From Paracyclopina nana (Eukaryota; Arthropoda; Copepoda; Cyclopoida; Cyclopettidae), in assembly GCA_019096065.1 (NCBI GenBank), contig JAGUCH010000001.1, forward strand, positions 6,820,001 to 6,884,000: 64,000 bases of DNA, in the 5' to 3' direction. How positions within the stretch are numbered: the stretch's first letter is position 1; each line of letters opens with the position of its first letter. Shown here piece after piece: positions 917 to 64,000 of this stretch. The notes under the pieces were generated by a model, which saw nothing but the letters and a program-made list of their open reading frames with translations, ran no database searches and was not told the DNA's origin. Position numbers and translations under genes: made by a program.

Positions 917-3900
917 ATGGCCGCCAACTTTGAAAATAAGGACTGTAAAAAGTCGACAAACGGCAACAATGAGGAGAATCTTGACAACGAAACGGAGGAA
1001 GATACCGAAGATGAAGAAGAAGATTCCGAGGAGTCAGAGGACACTGAAATCGAGTTCAAAAACAGTCCTCGTAGGACCACTCGATCCTCAGTGGCTGAAG
1101 CAGCGAAAAAGGTCAAAAAGCCGATCAGAAGGCCAGCTGCAACCGCAGCACCGTCATCTAAAAAAATCGCAACGAAAAACGGCAAAAAGAAAGGTCCTCC
1201 ATCTTCGGGCAGGAAAGGAACTCCTCCTCGCAAGTCTTCCATTAACTGCCAATTGTGCTCCGAAGTGGTCGCGGATTCAAGCCTAGATGACCATCTATCA
1301 CTTGTGCACTTCAAAACCAAGTTGGCTAAATTGTTGCCTTCTCAGCCGCCCTACAAGTGTCCTAAATGTGCCTCAACTTTTTCTGACGATGACCATGACG
1401 GACTCATTTCTCACTATGGGGGCCATCATGGGCTGAATGACAAGTTCGTCGACGAGGAAATTCGTGACAAAGTGAACAACGGGGGACATAAGCAATCCTT
1501 ACGATCCTTGAGATCAGCCTCAAGGTCCTCCAGCTCGGATTCATCTGTAGAGTGCAAAATGTGTCACGTGACATTACCTGATTTGGCTAGCCTCAAGGAT
1601 CACGGCCTTGAAGTCCATTTCAAGGAGGAGATTCTCAGTAGCCTATCAAGGACGCAGCCTTTTTCTTGCCCAAATCCTCGGTGCTCAACCATGTTTAATG
1701 ACTTTGACGATTTGAGCTGTCATTTTCTAAATGATCACGATCCCATGGCTGCATTCATGACGAAAATGACTTCGTCACCCTCGAACACAACCTCAAATGG
1801 GAACGAGGATCCGGAAGAAGACGTCACAAGGCCACCAAAAGCTTGGTCAATACCGAAACCAAGGAATTACACCGAATACTGCAAACAAATAAAAACGTCC
1901 TTGAGATTAAACGACGGTCGAACCGCCGAGGCTGAGGATGACAGATCTGTTAAGTGCGTTTGCGGCAAGGTTATCCGGGTGAACTTCCGGTTCAACTGGC
2001 GCTTCATGATTCAAAGGCCGACTTTGAGAAATGGCCAGGCGAAGCCCAAAGGCCACTGGTTCATGTGTTCGGAGGTGGCGAAGGTTGGCTCGTGCGTGGA
2101 GGATTGGAAATTTTCTGCGGCAGAACTAGAAGCTTCAAAACACTTTGGCTGTGATCAAGCTGACTTTGAACAAGTTAGTTTAAATAAGAGAAGACAGAAG
2201 CGAAAGCGAGGCCCTGATAGCTTCTATGAGGAATTTGACGATCAAGACGAAGAAGATACGAAGAAAAAGGCCAAGGACGAAGAGCTCGATGATGATGACG
2301 ACGAGGAGGATGAAAGCTTTAGTGATGAGGAAGAAACGCCTCGAGAGCAGAGGCTTATCATTCGTAAAAGGGTGAACGAGCTCATGGCGAAAAGGGTGCC
2401 AAACGAAACTTTTCTGCAGGATGGTCCTTGTTTTCAGGTATGCTAATGGACGCCAAAAAAGGTGCTGTTTACTAAAGGTTTATTTCTAGATGTCTCATGA
2501 AGGCTCATTGATGTGCCATGAATGCAAGTACATGCCTCTGGCAGAAAAAAGGACTATTTTGGCTTCCGAGACGTCCGAGGGAGAGATCTCTTGCTGTTTC
2601 TACAGTTTTCGCAAGTTAAAAAGCTCAAAATTCGGAGGATCTCTGAGCGTGGCCGGATTCCTTGACCCATTGAGAGATCCAACTGATACCAACTTGCTAG
2701 TGTGGCAAAAATCATTATCGCAGCCCGAGTTTGTGAACGTTGAAAAGGCCAAGTTCATTTTGGGCTTGATTGGTGACCAGTTTTGTGACATGGTGCTAGC
2801 CGAAAGAAAATGCCTTTCAATGCATTCGGAAATTGCAGAGAACAAGCTAAGCGTTTGGAAACCAGCGGTCAAAGGAGTGCGAGAAATGTGCGATGTTTGC
2901 AAAACGACCATTTTCAATTATCACTGGATTTGTGGCCGATGTGGGGTTTTTATTTGCCTTGACTGCTATCAGGTAATTTTGGCGTTTTGCAATATTTAGG
3001 AGTGGCATGACAAAAGCAATATTAACGAATAGGATTCCAGTATCGCAAGGAAATAATATTTCTAAATCGCTTCTACTTTGTGAAATAGAAGTCAAGTAAT
3101 TTGAATGAAGCACTAAAACTTTTGAAAAATAAGATCCCGTATAATGTGTGTTTTTCTTGATTAATAACATCAATTGAAGTAAGGGAAATTTTAAAAGCCT
3201 TTCCAAGTAATTAGAAGTTAAATTTTGGCGTTATTTTTTGCATTGCTCTCTCCAGCTTTCTACCTGCTATTTCATCAGAGGGATTGTCGAAGCGTAAAAA
3301 GCTATCACGAAAAAAAGCAATTCTTTGAGGAAAGCCTTCACTTTAGCAGTTTTTCATAGGATAGGGATAAATTATCAAAATAAACAATCGATCATTTCCA
3401 GCTCCCTCTGCTAATTAATTCATCTATTTTGGGTCAGTAAAGCGTTGCAAAAAGAGTGCACTTAAAGTATTTTGGCCTTTGCAACAATGTAAAGGTTACG
3501 GGAGTACTTTGATGCTGCACCACAATTAAATGGCTTTACATTGACTCGCCTCATTTACATTTCCTTCTGGACTTTTCAGTTTCGGAAAGGCGGGTTGATC
3601 AAAGAACAGCATCAGTTGACTGACTCGGATCGGGACGAATACAACTGGCCATTATGTACTATTGGAGAGTCACATTCCATCCGAAAGCTTCTCTTGGCTC
3701 AGATCATTCCCAGAAACGAATTGGTCGAACTGGCCAACAAGTTACACAGGCTCAGAAATGAACATGGGATCAACCAGTTTTGCCACAAACCTGATGACTT
3801 CTCCGAAGCCTACAGCTTACAAACGTTGGCCGACAATAAATCCAGGGTAACATTCCTTTCTTCTTTACGACAAAATGACTTAAATGAGCTAACCGTTAAG

Positions 3901-6900
3901 ATAGTCGGTAACTATCAGAACAGAGCACTTTTAGAGGCATGTTTGCCTTACTGTGATTGGTGCTTGCGTGCTATGTTAAATAAAGCGAGGGGAGAAAAAA
4001 TTGACAGCAGTGGCACGGTGAAATTAGCAAGGGCATGTTTTTCTGAGAGCCGCCAACTTTTCGGAGAAAGCGTCTGCCATCCTAAATTGTCGACTATGAT
4101 CCTTTTTAATTTCAGGTAAAATCCAGTCCAACACTCTCAGGAAGGCCATCGTTGTTGTATGTGTGTCGCTTATGCCCTGAGACCGCTTTTAAATGGCAGT
4201 CGTGTCTGTACAAGCACTTCCTGATCAATCATTTCAATGAGCAAATTCGTAGCCTGCTTCCCAATGAAGAACCGTACAAATGTCCCAAGTGCGAGTATTC
4301 CGCAAAACAAAAGCACATTCTCATGCTCCACTTCGGTATCACTCACAAAGTTGTTCTCAAACTGATCGAAGACGCGGCAGCTCAGGGGCAACCCATGTTT
4401 CTCAAGGCTTCGGCCGAAGATCTTCAACTGTCGACGAGCTCTAGAACCTCGAAAAGCTTAATCGCTGGTGAAATTTCAAAGCAGCTCGACAAAGCCTTTA
4501 ACTGTCCACTCTGTCCGCTCTCTATATCACACGGGCAAAAACGTGGCCATCTGGTCAAACATTTTTATGCTCAATTGTCGGCCGAAGTGGCCTTAAAGTC
4601 CTCATCATCGGAATCTACCCCTTTCGAGTGTTATTTGTGCCGGCACGTCGCGATCGATAGGAGGAGTCTGGTTCGCCATGTCGGTGTTATCCATGGCCTT
4701 GTTGACACTTTTATCAAGGAATACTTGCCTGATCATGCCGAAGATCTGAGCTACAATCATCAGTTATTCAACGAGCCCAAAGAAGAGATTTCAAATCAAG
4801 TGACTTCCGGGGCAGAGTGTAGACTTTGTGAACGTCCTCAATTTTTCAGGTAAAAATTAGTACCTTATATTGAATGAAGTAACGTTTACAAATGGAGCCT
4901 ACTTTAACTCGCATGATCGAGGCCACAGGAAGTGGCAAAAATTGGATTACATATCACTTAAAAGCTCTAAATGCACTTTTTGTAATGATATAATTGCGTC
5001 TGTGAACAGATCTATTATAGCTATCTGTGCGACACATAAACATTCGTGACTTTTTTCACTGACATTTCACGAATGCTAGCTCTTAATTTTACTCTTCACG
5101 AACCTGTGAAAGAAAGCACCTCAAGTCATTAGGTTTATTCCATGGGAGAATGCTTCTCTTCGGAGGTCCTTTTTCAATTATAAACTATATACTTTTTAGA
5201 GTGACTGATGATGATGATGTTTCAGGCCATTTGATGGCCATTTTTCGTGTCTTACACTTTGTGAGATACAATTGTTTGTTTAGCATATTTCGTGATCAAG
5301 ATCGCCTGATTGGTGGTTGCTTGAGCAAACTTTTTCTTCTTGGTCTTGATTGCTGTCATGACAGTATTAGTTTCTCCACTTTTCTTAGTCGACCCTCAGC
5401 CATTCACGAAGAAGCAAACTTGTACAATCATATTGCTCTTACACCATTACGCTAAAAATCGAACAATAGTGTTCCCTCCAAGAAAAAAACCCTCGGTTTT
5501 TAGAGGTTTCTTTCAATAAACCTTTGGTTAAAACTTATCAAGGCTCCTATGTATTGTATACTTTCAGGCACAATGGAGAGCTTTACAGACATTTGGCCCT
5601 GTCCCACTTCAGTCAGAGGATCTGGAAAGAAGATCTTGGCGATCTTCCCAAAGATCAAAGGCCGTTCAAATGCACAAGTTGTGACTATACGAATGGCTCA
5701 AGTATCCAGCTGATCGTCCATGTCGGAGTCGTCCACAGGATGGCAATTAAGTACCATTTTGAAACTCTCAACGTGAAAGACTCTGACTGGAGCCAGATCG
5801 AGACTTTTGGCGTCCCTCGGAAGACCAATAGCACAACTACAAGTTCTTCCAGCTCGCAAAGCCAGGCCGTACAGCAGCACCAGCATAAAAAGCAGCCTTC
5901 CAAGCCCGAAAAGTGCCCTGTATGCGACGAAACTCTCGCTCTACCAGCCTTACTTTTTCACTTGGCGCAACACCACTTTTCATCCATGTTGGCAGCAGCT
6001 AGGGTGCCTGTGGAGGCTCCCTTCAAGTGTCCTTTGTGCCCTCATTTTGCCGAACAATACGGTGGAATTTTGAGGCACTTTTTTATCTTCCACAAGCAAT
6101 TGGATGTCATGACTGAATCACTCAAGAATGCTCAAAATGAACCAAAGGTCAGCAGTACAAACTATTTTTTTTACCTCCTCTTACTTATCAAAGGATGCAT
6201 TTTGCTCTACAGGAAGAGGATCTACCACTTCCACCTATTCCCGTCATACCTCAGGATTTTAGCCAAAAGGGTCCATTTCAATGTTTACTCTGCGATGACA
6301 TCCCTCCCATTGGGCAAACATCGTATGACTTCCACAAGCACCTGTGCGAAGCTCATTTTCGCGATCGCTTGCTTTCGGCGATTCGACAAATTGAGGTCAA
6401 GGAGGGCGAAGCAACTGTCAAAAAGTATGCTTGTCCAGCACCCAATTGTGGCTACGAGTTGCCTCAGAAGTGGGTGATGGCCAAGCATTACGGGCTCAAG
6501 CATCAAATAGCCAAGCAATTCTACGCAACAATCTGCGATTTGGGTAGCTTACCTTCGTCTCAACTGGTCGTTCAGGTAAACCTGCAATTTTCCCCATATT
6601 TATAAGAAGAGCTGAACTTTGTTCTTAAAGGGACAAGCTGAGGAATCACGGGGACCGGAGGAAGAATTTGATGATGAGCATTTTAATGAACAAGAAGGAA
6701 TAAGCAAAAATGTCACACAATTGCCGCCAGTTACACCGATTCCCCAGGCTCAAATCCTTCCAAGTGCTCATTCTCAGCCCCTTGTAATCCCGCACGCTCC
6801 TCTTCCACCACCTCAATCTCATCCTCATCAAATAAGTCCTCATCTCGGTGAAAATCAGTATTTACCCCCTCCTTCTCAATTGCACCAGATTCATGTCGCT

Positions 6901-9900
6901 TCTCCGAATCCTCAGCACCACGCATATCATTCTCATCCAGTGGATTATGTTCAACAGCCAAATCCATACGTCAACTCAATTTCAGATCCCTCTCTAGACC
7001 AAAGTTTTGCTTCCTCGTCCATGGATGATTCGTCTATGACCTCAGAGAGTCCTCACACTAATAGCGATAATAAGTCGTACGATTGTCAAATTTGCGCTGT
7101 AAAAAGTCCTGGAATGTCTGCTTATTTGAAACATCTGAGCAAAGTCCATTTCAAGCACAAGCTCCTTTCTATGGTGCCTAAGACGAGTCCCTTCACATGT
7201 CCATGGGAGGGCTGCGAAGTGACCAAAAAAGATCGATTCAACATAAGCCTTCACTATGGGATGACTCACAAAGTTGCGCTTAGATTAATGCAAGAAATGC
7301 CAGAAGATGCTCTCAACGAGGATGTCGAAGCTGTATGCAAACTCTGTCACGAGAGTTTCACGGCCCATAGGTACTCATTTTTTTGCTATCCCTTTGACAA
7401 TAATTGTTCATTGCTCAATATCAGGTACCTGTACACACACTTGTCGGACTCTCATTTTACCGCTGAGTTAGATCTTGAACTGCCAGCCAGTAGCCCCTGG
7501 AAGTGCCCAAAGTGCCCTTATGAAGGCAGCGACATCAGAGGCCTCCGAGTGCATTATGGAGTACGGCACAAAGTTGTCCTCAACTTCTTGGCCACAAGAT
7601 TGGGGGTTAATGCCAACAATTTGAAGAAGGAGATGAAAGCAGGAAGGAAAAAGGCTGTTTCCGCATTGAAGACCACACTGACATGCCGGTTTTGCCCCAT
7701 GCTTTTCAAAAGTCCACCTGATCATGCGAAGCATGTGGTAATGCATCTGAGGCATGTTTTGGCCGCTCAGCTTCCACAAAACGAACCTTGGAAGTGTCCA
7801 AAGTGTGAATTTGCAGCTGTCAATGCCCAGAATTTATTAATTCACTATGGAATCAATCACCCAGATGTTGTGAAAGAAATCATGGCTGGAGATGCGTCAC
7901 AATTAGTAATTGACATGAGCTTTATTCATCAACAACCCAACTCTTCCGCTAATCAGAGAGGAGCTCAGCAGCTTTCACAGCCTCATGGGCACAACCAACA
8001 ATTTCCTCAAAGAAATAACGTTGCATCTGAAGATGCCACTTTGGCAGCTGAAGCAAATAGACTCGCTATGGAGGATAAAAGATTCCCCAAGTGCAGACTT
8101 TGCAACTATAGGTAGATATTTGGAATAACCATTCAGCTTTTTGTGGCACACCGTCTAACGAATATTTTGCTTTAGATATTTCACAAGGCTGGACTTGTGT
8201 CGTCATTTTGTGGACTATCATTTGAGGATGAGACTGCACAACATCATAGATCCTAATAACAGTCGCTGCCCTGTCTGCCCCCTTACGTATGAAAAGAAGC
8301 AATCAAGATTGAGACATTTCATATGGTCTCACCAAGACCTTGAGGGTCTTGTCATTCAAGATTCTCAAGTCAGGCTGTCGGAATTCACTCCTTCACTGAG
8401 AGACCTTGAAATCGTTCGGCAGAAAAACGATATTAAGATGAACCCTGGAGCTGAAATGATGCCAGCAGTGAAAGATATCACCGATCTCGCAGCACTGCCG
8501 GTGCATGATAATATTGATGTCAAGCTGCAAAACTCCCATTGCGAATTGTGTGGAGAAGAATTCAAAACGAGCGTGAATAAGGCCCGTGACAAAGGAAGCC
8601 ATCTGCTCAGCCATTTCAGAGAAGACATAATGAAGGATTTGCCCTCTAAAAGGCCTTATAAGTGTCCAAAATGCACATTTTTGGGAAAGGATAGCCAAGA
8701 CTTATTGCGACACTATGGTCTCAACCACAAGGCAGTATATTATTGTTTGCAACGCGAATTGGGTGAAACATGGACCCTTTCAGAGATTGACGAAGCCAAT
8801 GATTGCAAGATCTGCAAGCAAGTCTTCTTGAACAGTCGAGCTCTCACTGATCACTATTGCTCCCAGCATTTCTACGCAAAACTGTCTGAAGGATTGCCAA
8901 ATGCTCCTCCTTTCAAGTGCTCGAGCTGCAGCTTCAGCTCTAAGACTCACTTGGCCCTCGTGAGGCATATGGGGAACAAGCACAAATTAGTCAACAAATT
9001 TCTTCAAGAATCCGGATACGAGAGAAGACGGAGCAGCTCAACTAGCCAGGACTCGGCTCATTTTGATCAATATCATGGTCAACAGCAGCCTTCGTTTCAT
9101 CATGCGCAGCAGCAGCATCAGATTCAATTACAGCAACAACAATGGGTGGACCACTACCAACACCCACATACTGGTCCTCCACAGTTTCACCATCAAAGTC
9201 CCCCGACACTTCAGCAGTCTCAAGTCTCGTATAGCGCCCCTCCGGAGGCAACATCTTCTCCTTTTGCCTCACCAAGCCACCATCACCATGGGTTTGCTTC
9301 ACCCCATCATCAATCCCAGTTGATGTCTCCTCCACCTCCGCAGCATCACCAACAGCTTGTTGTGCCTCATAACCAGCCCCAACCAGGGATGGCAACAACA
9401 CCTCAGCCTCAGGACTATCCCAAAGAAGGTAGCCCAAAGTTGTCAACCAAGTCTGACCATACGCCGGTAGCCTGTCCTATATGCAATTCGACGTTCCTTA
9501 ATGGTACCCATTTCTTGAGGCACGCTGCAGACAAACACTTTGTAGAGCAACTGCGGGCTGATTTGCCTCAGTCTCCTCCCTTCAAGTGCCCCTACTGCTC
9601 GTTCGTTGGGAAGGACATCAAACTCTTGGTGCGTCATTATGGCCTTTTGCATAAGATGGTGCTCAAGCTCTTGAACGAACGATCTGGTATCATGGACAGT
9701 TACGATGACTCCATCCTAAAGCAATATGAGACCCAAGAGAGCAATAGGGACTGTTGTCCACTTTGCAAGTCTACCTTTGGGGGCAAATACATGCTTCTGA
9801 GGCACTTGGCAGATTGCCATTTTCGTGAGAGGTTGTGTCAAGGCTTGCAACAGGGTGAGGTGTTCAAGTGCCCACAGTGCAATCATGAGTCGAAAGACAA

Positions 9901-12900
9901 GGGAGGATTTGTCCGGCATTACGGCCTGGTGCACAAAATGGTTCAGAAATGGCTCAAAGAAATGGGCATATCTGGCTTTGATGACGGCGATCCCAAAAAC
10001 AAAGCTATTCCGCCCTTGTCACCAGCTCAACATCATTCTCCGACTCCACAGCCTCAGGCCTTTTATTCGGCTCAACAAATCAATAATCAGCATTATCCAG
10101 AGTATCCTCAACCGCAGGCTGCGGCGGTTGATCAGTATTACCCGTCACCGCCACCCGCACTTCCATCAGTGCAACCACCTGGAGCAGCCTACATGTCGGC
10201 CGATCATCAACGTCAATATCCTAATCAAATGCCAAGTCCAGCATCTCAACAGACTTCTCCGCAAAACCTAAGTAGCGAAGCATATGCTAGTCCAAGCACT
10301 CCTCACACGTACCATCAGTACGAGCAGCCACAGCAATACTATCCGCAGGACCTTTCTCGCTCCACCCCGAGCGTTGGCCAACAGCCCTTGGACTACTCAA
10401 ATGGACAATACTACGGTATCAGGCCTCCCAGTCAGCAGTACGGACATCAGCCACTGACTCCTCAGACGCCAAATCCTGCTGTCACTCCGCAACCAATGAC
10501 TCCTCAGCCAATGACTCCTGGATCACATGGGGCTCCAACACCTCAGCCAATGACTCCACATGATCAAAATAGTAACGGCAGTGCTGGAATGATGAGTCCT
10601 GGAGGGTACAACTACGAAAGCAGGCAGGTGATCTTGACTCCTGTGTCTTCGACCTCCTCATACTATCAACAAAGACCCGTCACTCTCCAGCCCATTGATG
10701 CTCCCAAGGAATTGCCTCCTCCAACAACTGCGGCACCGAATTCAGCAAACAATCGGGCCCAGTCTAATTATGTTCCCCCTGGAGACGAATTCATTGAGGC
10801 TCCTCCGCCTGGTATGAAAGGGCCTTACGCAATTCAATGCATGTACTGTCAAGGTGTGAGCAAGAACAAGTCTGACTTCTACCGACACTTGAGTGAAAGG
10901 CACTTCAAGAATGATCTGGCCAAAGAACTTCCCACCGTGGCCCCATTCAAATGCCCAGTCCCTGATTGCCAATATGAGACGAAAGACAACACTGTTTCCC
11001 CTTTGATCAAGCATTACGGCATAGTGCACAAGTCTGTACAGAAGTATTTGAGAGGTCAGATTGCCGGAAAATATGTCCACTCGGAGGCTAAGCCCACCAA
11101 TGCTAAAGGTGTCACACCAACTCCAACAGTTCTAGAGCATCGCCAGCAACCATCACGACCATCACCCCATATGAAGCCACCTACTCCCGCGGGGGCCATG
11201 ATGAATGGCGGAGAAGTGACAACAATGTCAAACCTCGCTTTGAAAGTCAAGTGTCCGTTTTGCGACTTGATGTTTGCTGCTCGATACACCTTTCATCAGC
11301 ATCTTTGTGACAGACATTTCAAAGAGGCCTTGGCTGAACAAGTGCCACAGCAGCCGCCATATTTGTGTCCGGTGAACGACTGTGGATACGTGGCCAAAGA
11401 CTCCAGGCAAAGCTTGATTCGTCACTATGGAATGACCCACAAAGTGATTGTTGATCTTCTGAAAAGGCATGCCCCTGAGTATGCCGATCTAAGCGATCCT
11501 TTTAATCAAGGTGAAGTTCAGCAGCAACAGCCTCCTCCGCCACCCCCAGCGCAGCAGTACTATTTGCCTCAACCAAATCAAGGGCCTGCGTATCAAGAAT
11601 ATTACCAACAGCCCGACCAGCAGCAGCTCATCTCTCCAAACGAGCAGTACCAGCAGCAGCATCAGTACGCTCCTATGCAGCATGGCTTGCCAGCTCAAGA
11701 TCTCCGTTTCGAACCCCAGATTGATGGCACCTTCGACCCATCGCATTACTCTGATCAGTCGAGCTTGGATGGGTTTAAATCGCTGCCGACCACTCCGGTT
11801 AAACAGATAAAAGAGGAGCTTCCCTCTATCCCAGAGCCAAGTGTTTCTGCCACCAAGGCTAAGGGTGGGCCTAAAATATGCGAAATTTGCGGAAAACAGT
11901 TTGAAGGTAAAAACAGAGCCATGCTCAAGGTGCAACATATGGCCCATCACTTCAAAGACAAGCTGTTTGCTGATATCCCAGACAAAACGCCTCCGTTTAA
12001 ATGTCCGATAGAAGGTTGCCAGTATCAAACCAAACACAAACCCGATTGGGCCAGGCACTACGGATCCGTTCATCAGTACATTGCCAAGTATTTGAAAGAA
12101 TATTTGGAGACTCATGAGTCCAAAGCAGAGCCTCTGGAAGATGAAAATGGGGAGCAACATGAAATGACTGACGAGGAGAAGACTTATTCTGCCTTCTTGC
12201 CCAAGGCTGAATTGTCTCAAATTATTAGCACTGCCATGGACCAGCAGAGCCAACCTCTTAGAAACTTTGGGGTGATCACAATAACAAGCTCCGATTTGGA
12301 GAGTGAGCATGGTGAGCCTGGTCACGTGGAGCCTCAACAGTGCTTCATTTGCCCGAACGGCCCGTGGTTCAAGTGCGATAAGGACCTCAATGATCATTTC
12401 GCTACGCAGCATATTGAATTTGTGCAAGAACTTAAGCCAAGGCTTGAAGTCCTCGATGATCTTGGTGAAGTTTTGAACGACTTGGATATAGAGCCTCAGG
12501 AAGCCAACATTCTCAACCAGGCTCATCCGCCACATGCTCCAACAGCTTCGCGGGTTCCGAACCGCTCCACTGGGCGACCATGTGAACTTTGTGGCTTCGA
12601 GCCGAAAACCAAGAACAAGTCTAGGGAGAGGCAGGACCACCTTGCAATGAAGCATTACAGAGATCGAATTCAGTCCGACCTGACAGCCTCCACCAATTTC
12701 TCTTGTCCTCTTTGCGACTACGTCGGCAAAGACAAGCAAACCATCTACAGGCACTACACGGGTAAGCACAAAGTGGTCGAGCAATACTTGGCGGAGGACA
12801 TCGCTGCTGGTCGAGTGGAGACTTTGGCTCAAAAACAAGCCTACGAAGCTGTAGTGGAGACTTTGGCTCAGAAGCAAGCCCAAGAAATGGAGGTGAAATC

Positions 12901-15684
12901 TTTAGCCGTGGAAGGTACGAGCACCACTGTTGGAGTCTTTTCACCTGCAGCCTCCGAGATGAAAACGCTGCCAAGTTTTGAAACAACCGCAATGGAATTG
13001 CAAACCTCTGGTGGTCTTGATCTAAGCCTTCATGCAATTGCCAACCCTGAATCTGGGCAAAGGATCAGCCTGACCGAATTCCTCGAAAGCCACGATGCTC
13101 TGGAAGCTGGAACGGCACCTTCTTCTGGTGCCAGCGTTAATTCGGATCGAATCATGCAAGTAGACGGCAGTATTTCGTCGACCATCATGCAGGTCGACGG
13201 GGCTGATGATATCATTCCTCAAATTGACGGTGAAGACGAAATGATGTTTCCACCCGAAGATGAATTGTATGGCAATGATTCGAATGGTTCCACATCCTCA
13301 AATGGAGCAAGGCAAATCGATTCGAGGTGTCCTATTTGCGATTTTCCAACTAAGCTTCACAAGACCTACCATTTGGCTACGAAGCACTTCAGGGATCGTC
13401 TGATTGCCCTCCTGCCAAATGATAAGCCATTCAAGTGTCCCGAATGTGGAGAATATGAGGCCAAAACGAGAATCAACTTGTGGACTCATTATCTGGGAAA
13501 GCACAACTATAGCAAGAAATGGATCAACGAGCTCTTGGGGCATCCTGAAGTGGTGGAGTTTCCCCAACACACAAACCATCTTCCTCCTCCATATGAATCG
13601 TCGCCAAGTAAGCTCCAATCAATTCTAACGCAGTCCAAAAGCCTTCCTCCGCCGCCACCGTATCCTATAGTGCAAACGCCTGCCATTGATGCCATTATCA
13701 AACCCGAAATGATCAAAACTGAGCCATCTGTCGCTCTTCCGCACGCCGCCCCAACAATCCCGATTGAAGACATCATTAAGCTGGAGATGATTGGTACCAA
13801 TGAAATTAAGACTGAAGCTCCGGATACGCCAGTGACTTCAAAGCCTTTGCTCAAGCCAACTGAAACAACACCGAAGACAACCAGCAGAGTCGAGTTTTGG
13901 TGCGACCTTTGCCAAAAGCTGATCAAGTTCATCACCAAAACGAACCATTACGCCTCTGTCCATTTTGAAGCAAAATTGAGAGACACTCTGCCCACAGCCG
14001 AGCCCTTTTTGTGCATCATGTGCAATCACATTGGCAAAGACTTTAACAAGCTCACCAACCATTTCTTGAGCAGACATGATCTCCTCGACGAGTGGATTAG
14101 AGAGGAGTTGGATATAATTGAAGATGAAGCGATTGCGAGATCAGGCAATAGCTTGTTCATTTCCCAGCCCGACGAAGCCGACCTGATTGAAGTAGACTCA
14201 GACATCGAGAATGAGAACCCGAATGAAACCTCAACCAATGATCTCGGCCAATTGATCTCGCACTTATATCCGAATGCGCAGGGATCTTCCAAGAGGAGGA
14301 AAGTTCATCGGTCAGTTCAAGAACGAGGTTTGGAGGCGGTGAAGGACATCATCGAGCCGAACCGCTCAAAGTACTATGGCTGCGTGAAGCGAAGTTGGCC
14401 CACGAATCGTGAGCCGATCCCAGTGAGAGTTATGACCTCGGTTATGACCCAAAAGTTGTACCCAGATGTTCCTCACGATTGGTTCTGTGATGGAAAGCTC
14501 TTAATGCTGCTTGATCCTCTGTGCCCAGGCAATCTTAAGCTGTTCCAAGATCAGTGGATCAGAGGGCAGCCAGTGTTGGTGGCCAACGTCACCAAGCTCC
14601 TCAACATGGATCTTTGGCGACCAGAGGCTTTTTCGAATGAGTTTGGCCACATCAGGCATGACATTGTCAACACAAAAACGGGTCGCAAAATCCCCAATCT
14701 CTTGCTGAAAAAGTTCTGGGATGGGTTCATAAATCTGGGAGATCGTCTCACAGATGAGCATGGCCTCCCTATGCTGCTGAAGCTGAAAGATTGGCCTCCC
14801 GATAATGACTTGGCTATGACCCTTCCATCCAGGTTCGAAGACCTTATGAAATGCATTCCCTTGAAGGAGTACACGAAGCGTGAAGGTCGTTTCAACTTGG
14901 CCTCCTTCATGCCGGACTTTTTTGTGAAGCCCGACCTCGGACCCAAGATGTACATCGCCTACGGAAACGCCTTGTATCCTGACACAGGAACTACCAATCT
15001 CCACATTGACATGAGTGATGCTTGCAACCTAATGGTTCACGTTGGTCTTCCCCAAGATGGAATTCGCGAGGAGCACATCAGCGAGGGCCTCAAGTCTGTG
15101 GAGGAGGCGGACTGTGATCCAGTCTTCCGGAGTCGTGTCCGGGAGGAGAATCCTGTGATTGGAGCAATTTGGCACATCTACCATCCTCGGGATGCTGACA
15201 AAATTCGTGACCTGCTCAACAAGGTTGCTCTTGAAAAGGGGCAGAAACTGGAGCCCAACACCGACCCCATCCATGACCAAAACGTTTTCCTCGATTCCAA
15301 GCTGAGGAAGAGGTTGTACGAGGAGTACGGAGTTGTGGGTTACGCCTTTCCTCAGAGAGAAGGAGACGTTGTTTTTATTCCTGCTGGAGCTCCTCACCAG
15401 GTAATTCGCGAAAGCCTTTCTATCTTGCCAAGATGTGCTATTCACTAAGAGGTTTTCTCGTGCTTTAGGTTCGGAACATTCACAACTGCATCAAGATAGC
15501 CGAAGATTTTGTCTCTCCCGAAAACTTGGAGTGGTGCTTCTACCAAACTGAGGAATTTCGTCATCTCAGCGATACTCACACCAACCACGAGGATAAGCTT
15601 CAGATCAAAAACATTTTGTATCACTCGGTGAAAGAGTGCGTCAATCTCCTAGAAACCGTGACCAAAAAAAGGGATGCAAACTAA
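917..15684 (+). CDS. KDM3-type JmjC histone demethylase carrying a giant C2H2 zinc-finger array
   Basis: Inferred exons: 917-2437, 2490-2972, 3580-3846, 4116-4849, 5568-6147, 6213-6575, 6631-7370, 7425-8111, 8176-15400 and 15469-15684. All junctions are GT-AG and phase-compatible; the total is 12,816 nt (about 4,271 aa). Order: acidic/basic N-terminus; two finger modules (residues about 111-281); KDM3 cysteine-rich region (about 508-757); some twenty more two-finger modules (about 774-3769) with Gln/Pro-rich linkers; basic SKRRKV nuclear signal (about 3830); JmjC domain (about 3890-4230). The iron ligands are present: H4068-x-D4070 within [10 protein letters not shown], and H4199 in GAPHQVRN. 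KDM3 enzymes demethylate H3K9me1/2 in the nucleus using Fe(II) and 2-oxoglutarate; activity here is inferred from family. Usual KDM3 proteins are about 850-2,500 aa, so this one is exceptional. The weakest junction is the GTAACA donor after 3846. Without it, exons 1-3 would end at a stop near 4117. The 54-bp intron 7371-7424 has no stop and could be retained. Confidence 0.85.
1247..1770 (+). other. N-terminal pair of two-finger C2H2 modules
   Basis: Two modules sit upstream of the KDM3 zinc region. The first has CQLC...H...HF then PPYKCPKC...HYGGHH. The second has CKMC...H...HF then CPNPRC...HFLNDH. They match the main array in order (first finger, LP-like spacer, second finger). The array family is therefore present on both sides of the KDM3-specific zinc region, which argues that all exons belong to one gene. 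The segment between them and exon 2 ([14 protein letters not shown] onward) is Cys-containing and basic. Confidence 0.8.
2490..3846 (+). other. KDM3 cysteine-rich zinc region (exons 2 and 3)
   Basis: Exon 2 starts at residue 508 with MCHECKYMP, continues through CCFYSFRKL and GFLDPLRD, and ends with a clustered finger: [15 protein letters not shown] (from residue 641), then [13 protein letters not shown] partly overlapping it. Exon 3 holds [12 protein letters not shown] and [15 protein letters not shown]. These correspond to the conserved region that in KDM3A/B/C precedes the JmjC domain and is needed for activity. Here it is separated from the JmjC domain by about 3,000 residues of finger array. 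Confidence 0.85.
10480..10565 (+). repeat. coding PQPMTP repeat in a linker
   Basis: The linker after the CPLCKS module contains three close copies of PQPMTP, encoded by near-identical CCTCAGCCAATGACTCC units. Surrounding sequence is rich in Gln, Pro, Tyr and Ser and looks disordered. Confidence 0.75.
12815..12892 (+). repeat. 39-bp coding tandem duplication (VETLAQKQA)
   Basis: Two adjacent 39-bp copies, at 12815-12853 and 12854-12892, encode [13 protein letters not shown] and [13 protein letters not shown]. They sit just after the CELCGF module. A second small repeat, IMQVDG twice then IPQIDG, follows at about 13153-13230. Confidence 0.7.
14467..15684 (+). other. JmjC catalytic domain, KDM3 subfamily
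   Basis: The domain spans the end of exon 9 and exon 10. The first ligand pair lies at codons beginning 15002 (His) and 15008 (Asp), in [20 protein letters not shown], which is the KDM3 signature. The distal His codon is at 15395-15397, three codons from the window's largest exon's end counting the Gln that follows, and exon 10 continues [20 protein letters not shown]. No frameshift or stop interrupts it. The stop codon TAA is at 15682-15684. Confidence 0.9.

Positions 15685-16793: not shown

Positions 16794-37845
<21,052 letters not shown>

Positions 37846-52565: not shown

Positions 52566-61611
<9,046 letters not shown>

Positions 61612-63312: not shown

Positions 63313-64000
<688 letters not shown>

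Follow-up and report, generated by a model that had tools for sequence, protein, structure and literature searches.

A KDM3-type histone demethylase gene of the copepod Paracyclopina nana carries a long array of paired C2H2 fingers in its predicted protein

A single gene of Paracyclopina nana is best read as encoding a KDM3 histone demethylase fused to an array of 43 C2H2 zinc fingers. The gene lies on the forward strand of the 64,000-nucleotide stretch analysed here (C1:6820001-6884000, referred to as the window) and is modelled in ten exons with GT-AG introns and compatible phases (Table 1). The joined exons comprise 12,816 nt, or 4,271 codons and a stop, with no internal stops. By the defining sequence features tested, the predicted protein is a KDM3, and it bears a targeting-type array unmatched in those parts of the KDM3 literature that were consulted. 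An earlier sequence-only reading had proposed about 43 fingers in a protein of about 4,270 residues between positions 917 and 15684, and the ten-exon model agrees with each of these figures, the finger number being that given by a loose expression.

Table 1. Features of the fused KDM3 gene, in window coordinates
Feature	Position	Strand	Content
Exon 1	917-2437	+	start codon at 917 is the first ATG of the frame (putative); donor CAG/GTATGC; acidic/basic N-terminus; finger pairs 1 (1235-1474) and 2 (1541-1783)
Exon 1, 3' end	2411-2437	+	first half of KDM3 block FLQDGPCF
Exon 2	2490-2972	+	KDM3 block (CHECKY..), then KDM3-type zinc domain 2889-2972
Exon 3	3580-3846	+	KDM3 block W.LCTI...LLAQIIP at 3643-3783
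Exon 4	4116-4849	+	finger pairs 3 (4152-4397) and 4 (4491-4745), first part of pair 5
Exon 5	5568-6147	+	remainder of pair 5; pair 6 (5902-6144)
Exon 6	6213-6575	+	finger pair 7 (6270-6548)
Exon 7	6631-7370	+	proline/glutamine/histidine-rich linker, pair 8 (7072-7314), first part of pair 9
Exon 8	7425-8111	+	remainder of pair 9, pair 10 (7672-7911), first part of pair 11
Exon 9	8176-15400	+	remainder of pair 11, pairs 12-21, low-complexity linkers, most of the JmjC domain (from 14474)
Pairs 12-16 (exon 9)	8528-8779, 8792-9034, 9461-9703, 9743-9985, 10826-11068	+	
Pairs 17-21 (exon 9)	11240-11482, 11867-12118, 12569-12820, 13316-13552, 13889-14128	+	
Single unpaired finger (exon 9)	12341-12412	+	
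Iron ligands HID (HxD), residues 4068-4070	15002-15010	+	aligned to HLD of human KDM3B
Third iron ligand His4199 (GAPHQV)	15395-15397	+	aligned to KDM3B
Exon 10	15469-15684	+	end of KDM3 JmjC domain, stop codon
Candidate polyadenylation signal AATAAA	15964-15969	+	280 bases past the stop

Forward-strand exons were located from stop-to-stop frames, from position 899 onward, and the genome used for comparison throughout comprises 92 Mb in 10 contigs. Exon 9, of 7,225 bases, is stop-free over 2,408 codons; between 8001 and 15700 the longest forward frame was 2,429 codons, compared with 194 in 20 mononucleotide shuffles. Within this one exon, 22 complete fingers and the greater part of the JmjC domain lie in a single frame, so the fusion of fingers and JmjC is independent of any splicing call. 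Introns 4, 7, and 8 are all phase 2, and each splits one finger between its Cys pair and its His pair; the fingers thus cut become complete only through splicing. The junctions of exons 5/6 and 6/7 were called from GT-AG consensus and phase alone. At the 5' end, the KDM3 block FLQDGPCF...CHEC spans the exon 1/2 junction, and its counterpart in a fingerless KDM3 gene of the same genome (see below), FLQDADCF, continues uninterrupted into CRECKW, an arrangement that links exon 1, with four fingers, to the main KDM3 part. Exon 1 also contains, outside the C2H2 modules, a Cys/His-rich stretch at 1951-2160 ([17 protein letters not shown]...GHWFMC...C), which is covered by none of the best Pfam stretches listed for that exon.

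Against the 43 fingers given by the loose expression and the 38 given by a strict one, 200 shuffled versions of the protein averaged 2.6 (maximum 8) and 0.26 (maximum 3), respectively, which rules out chance matches. Four fingers precede the KDM3 zinc domain and 39 follow it. All but one (42 of 43) are joined in 21 pairs, or two-finger modules, 18 of them within single exons and three cut by introns. The majority consensus of the module is CxxCxxxFxxxxxxxxHLxxxHFxxxLxxxLPxxxPFKCPxCxxxxKDxxxLxRHYGxxHKxV. Because the modules were chosen by a C2H2 expression and the invariance of their eight ligands is therefore partly built in, conservation was judged from the other positions. F26 is kept in 18 of the 21 modules, P39 and P43 in 17 each, L30 in 16, and G60 in 15, and position 40 is aromatic in 20. 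The two fingers of a pair are separated by an inner gap of 16 residues in 13 of 21 cases, and no TGE[KR]P linker occurs anywhere in the protein; on both grounds the array is not of the classical kind that tracks the major groove. Linkers between pairs range from 2 to 479 residues, the longest containing the KDM3 zinc region, and many are rich in Q, P, S, T, G, N, H, and A.

Searched against the PDB, the module profile found its best solved relatives in CTCF and other C2H2 proteins, with PRDM9 array chains also present among the matches (best 60 of 261). The match to CTCF-type arrays is read as one at the level of C2H2 fingers. The helix positions expected to make contacts are variable in both fingers of the module, though not clearly more so than other surface positions, and hypervariable contacts of the KRAB-ZNF kind are thus unsupported.

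The catalytic part is of the KDM3 type. All seven PDB sequences matched by the JmjC stretch (E up to 0.1) are KDM3B or JHDM2C (JMJD1C), the best being KDM3B with an E of 1.9e-108. Identity to human KDM3B is 56.8% over 345 aligned positions, and in this alignment the Fe(II) ligands HxD...H are intact. The zinc domain of exon 2 ([28 protein letters not shown]) and the W.LCTI...QIIP block align with those of two further KDM3 genes, on contigs C7 and C1, described below. Exon 2 gave no significant Pfam or PDB match to the zinc domain (best E 0.4 and 1.6, respectively); it is named a KDM3 zinc finger from the alignment with the C7 and C1 genes together with its resemblance to human KDM3 zinc domains. 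No JmjN match was found in exons 1, 2, 3, 4, 9, and 10 (Pfam, E up to 1). Five L..LL strings, candidate LXXLL motifs that may be due to chance, occur in the 4,271 residues. The claim that KDM3 zinc blocks, a complete KDM3 JmjC domain, and a finger array stand in compatible frames on one strand is confirmed by the gene model and the KDM3B match. At the sequence level, both the KDM3-type zinc domain and the JmjC active site are intact, and family membership suggests that the enzyme most likely removes H3K9me2/me1.

A genome search with the JmjC stretch, in which the best candidates were scored, returned at least five matches at three places. One of these is a second fused KDM3 gene on contig C7 (C7:5567027-5575638, L014:9027 to L015:7638), modelled in eight GT-AG exons with a frame of 2,676 residues. 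It encodes 22 fingers by the loose expression and 18 by the strict one, 12 before and 10 after the KDM3 zinc domain. In one exon (L015:2904-4429) the KDM3 zinc domain shares a frame with one finger and a finger pair; the next exon (L015:4491-6777) encodes eight fingers together with the beginning of the JmjC domain. The JmjC ligands are intact (HID and GAAHQ). The two JmjC domains are 61.2% identical over 374 positions, and that of the C7 gene is 54.2% identical to KDM3B over 345. The fusion appears to have been duplicated, giving the window and C7 copies. Ten pairs were marked by eye in the C7 protein, some of them irregular, and the closest window module to each shares 25-43% of residues. 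Such values do not by themselves demonstrate fast evolution of the array, since the KDM3 zinc region itself is just 36.5% identical between the two genes. After duplication the arrays may have diverged unusually fast, been partly regained, or drifted like other parts outside the JmjC domain. The N-terminal part of the C7 protein carries a long SKAED repeat, and the frames adjoining this gene, at about L015 8255-9174, presumably encode a nucleoside monophosphate kinase.

The third KDM3 gene lies at 9.24 Mb on the same contig as the window (L016:5811-10000, L040; C1:9236811 onward). Its model of 1,300 residues, whose 5' end is provisional, contains the KDM3 zinc domain and JmjC, and no C2H2 fingers were found in it. 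Its JmjC domain is 37.5% identical to that of the window protein over 376 positions and 35.5% identical to KDM3B over 341. In place of HxD and H it has QVE and R; both iron histidines are lost and the Asp is replaced by Glu, a replacement also seen in other JmjC proteins such as JMJD1C. In human KDM3A and KDM3B, changing one iron histidine to alanine abolished H3K9 demethylation in cells, according to the available passages of PMC3623819. With both iron-binding histidines gone, the fingerless protein is probably a pseudo-demethylase with a dead active site. The only fingerless KDM3 found therefore looks dead, and both array-fused copies look catalytically competent. The loss need not be tied to the fusion, as dead KDM3 copies are known elsewhere: excerpts of PMC2579438 and PMC3623819 describe two Arabidopsis KDM3s with changed cofactor sites.

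Separate genes or an assembly join were ruled out as the source of the fused model, since exon 9 is a single frame and the same architecture recurs in the C7 paralogue, where one exon combines KDM3 zinc domain and fingers. A split into two or more transcription units, in which an independent zinc-finger gene would interrupt the KDM3 gene or be read along with it, would find some room in the intron between exons 3 and 4 (3847-4115), which reads open in the exon 3 frame as far as the acceptor and whose boundary is putative; the fused model is predicted from genomic DNA, and internal promoters are possible. Such an arrangement is nonetheless very improbable, because fingers and JmjC share the frame of exon 9, a C7 exon joins finger, KDM3 zinc domain, and finger pair, three introns split fingers, and a KDM3 block is common to exons 1 and 2. 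The same four observations support the earlier proposal of one fused protein, and the C7 exon in particular makes separate transcripts for exons 1-3 and 4-10 unlikely. It is also improbable, if less so, that the array-bearing copies are decaying or non-catalytic KDM3s that perform no histone demethylation. Human JMJD1C keeps the KDM3 JmjC fold and no H3K9 activity was seen for it in the excerpted text of PMC3623819, so that an intact-looking site is no proof of activity, and the loss of both iron histidines in the fingerless copy suggests that KDM3 activity may be dispensable in the animal. Yet JMJD1C itself has HxE. In the window and C7 proteins HxD and the third His are retained, identity to the active KDM3B is 56.8% and 54.2%, respectively, and the long open frames are free of signs of decay.

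The reading preferred here, at a probability of roughly 0.6, is that of a fused KDM3 demethylase that acts on H3K9me2/me1 and is targeted or tethered by its own multivalent array, the array copies having taken over catalysis. This explanation draws on the exon 9 frame, the gene model and shuffle controls, the KDM3B match, the intact HID...H ligands, the second fused gene, and the conserved modules. The 21 two-finger modules, which flank the KDM3 zinc domain on either side and are joined by flexible linkers, would form a built-in device for multivalent targeting or tethering. Each module would probably make a weak and separately tuned contact to DNA, perhaps to RNA or chromatin proteins, and jointly the modules would bring the enzyme to chosen loci and keep these free of H3K9 methylation. 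In this genome the array-bearing copies would seem to replace the fingerless KDM3 in the catalytic role. Self-targeting without separate recruiters is plausible, and targeting by the array has a precedent in plant REF6, whose C2H2 fingers bind a motif at its targets (available text of PMC7105484). A possible but less likely alternative accepts the fusion and has the modules bind proteins, or one another, in place of nucleic acid, the array being a scaffold that gathers cofactors around KDM3. The paired, non-TGEKP design of the modules, with their conserved inner linker (HF...L...LP...PFKCP) and framework, would fit such a scaffold, as would the occurrence of one to three module-like pairs in other genes that have no long array (see below) and the homodimeric action of KDM3A (passages of PMC7280979). 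A set of 21 divergent modules, however, is easier to reconcile with a variety of contacts than with a single protein contact made over and over. Nucleic acid, moreover, is the commonest ligand of C2H2 fingers. A wider extension of the self-targeting reading, decidedly more tentative and on balance unlikely, is a shift within the lineage, in which H3K9 demethylation, once the task of a recruited KDM3 without fingers that would now be dead, would have passed to two KDM3s that target themselves and whose arrays are diverging. As the eraser counterpart of PRDM9- or KRAB-type arrays, these would read many sites and protect chosen loci from H3K9me2 and silencing driven by small RNAs.

Compared with known proteins, the predicted enzyme shares with animal KDM3s (KDM3A/JMJD1A, KDM3B/JMJD1B, and Drosophila Kdm3) the KDM3-type JmjC domain with HxD...H, the upstream zinc domain, and the QIIP block, but adds 43 C2H2 fingers flanking the zinc domain. 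The human KDM3s share one C2HC4-type zinc finger, an LXXLL motif, and JmjC (excerpts of PMC7280979), and the earlier statement that a single zinc finger and no C2H2 array are found in known KDM3s agrees with the portions of PMC7280979 and PMC7105484 available. Plant REF6 and ELF6, H3K27 demethylases of the KDM4 type, also combine JmjC and C2H2 fingers in one chain, and REF6 binds CTCTGYTY via its fingers (PMC7105484, in excerpt). Unlike them, the window protein has a JmjC domain of the KDM3 rather than the KDM4 type, no JmjN match in the six exons scanned, and 43 fingers in two-finger modules where REF6 has four at the C-terminus. The window protein is most likely a KDM3 counterpart of REF6. 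PRDM9, a methyltransferase with a tandem C2H2 array joined by TGEKP-type linkers, likewise unites a histone-modifying enzyme with a DNA-reading array; it writes, whereas the window enzyme would erase, and the window array is without such linkers. CTCF and other C2H2 arrays resemble the window array in their fingers but differ in linker and pairing, as do Krueppel-type tandem arrays, which the window protein departs from in its complete lack of TGEKP and in the 16-residue inner gap of most pairs.

Module-like pairs were also found elsewhere in the genome. One pair each occurs at L036:5136-6782 (C6), L037:4776-6125 (C8), and L038:3196-5391 (C4), the last in a frame that presumably begins with a BTB-like domain. 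A coiled-coil protein at L035:5334-8528 (C2) has three by eye, some of them irregular; its coiled coil and a PHD-like end are our own reading of the frame. Window module 19 clusters with the C6 and C8 modules, to which it is 56% and 51% identical, at a local support of 0.914; C7 module 3 joins window modules 7 and 16 at 0.944, and support is low at many of the remaining nodes. The JmjC query gave 16 pattern stretches and no relatives in a collection of genome contigs from bacteria, archaea, and viruses, a set uninformative on animals, and it found no relatives in viral contigs, which likewise says nothing on animals. A 16-residue match of the C6 module in the viral contigs (L041) was taken as chance, on a phage-like contig. 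Among the matches listed from the open-licence PMC literature, a KDM3 with a C2H2 array is not described in the text that was available, and a description in print elsewhere is possible.

Several neighbouring features were recorded. Downstream of the KDM3 gene, frames at 36847-37842 (+), 60484-61608 (+), and 63316-63999 (-), which we take to be WD40 parts of Groucho/TLE, stand as if a co-repressor gene had been locally duplicated. At C7:1138388-1171372 (L043, L046, L047) four Myosin_tail_1 genes lie in tandem with frames of about 1,700 codons, and more occur elsewhere; L043 is a muscle myosin heavy chain by PDB match, its best matches being to what we take to be insect chains (1701 and 1699 bits), above tarantula (1619) and vertebrates. 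The genome contains 80 chitin_bind_4 matches; this cuticle family and the myosin both indicate an arthropod. Searches for COX1 and for the hemocyanin family found no match in the genome, though the hemocyanin family was likewise absent from the results for every control genome.

The novelty of the architecture would fall if it were common in crustaceans and already in protein databases. The architecture would bear on how broadly acting H3K9 demethylases reach their loci; mammalian KDM3A, for example, is brought to target genes by Stat1 following heat shock (PMC4275180). With 43 fingers built into the enzyme, targeting could be tested within one protein, and the presence in one genome of a probably dead fingerless copy and live-looking fused copies would allow erasers that are recruited and erasers that guide themselves to be compared in a natural experiment. 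When Kdm3 was knocked down in Drosophila ovaries, H3K9me2 expanded to 30.7% of the genome, up from 19.5%, and new regions began to produce piRNAs (excerpts of PMC10081847), so the choice of loci by such an enzyme could matter for genome defence.
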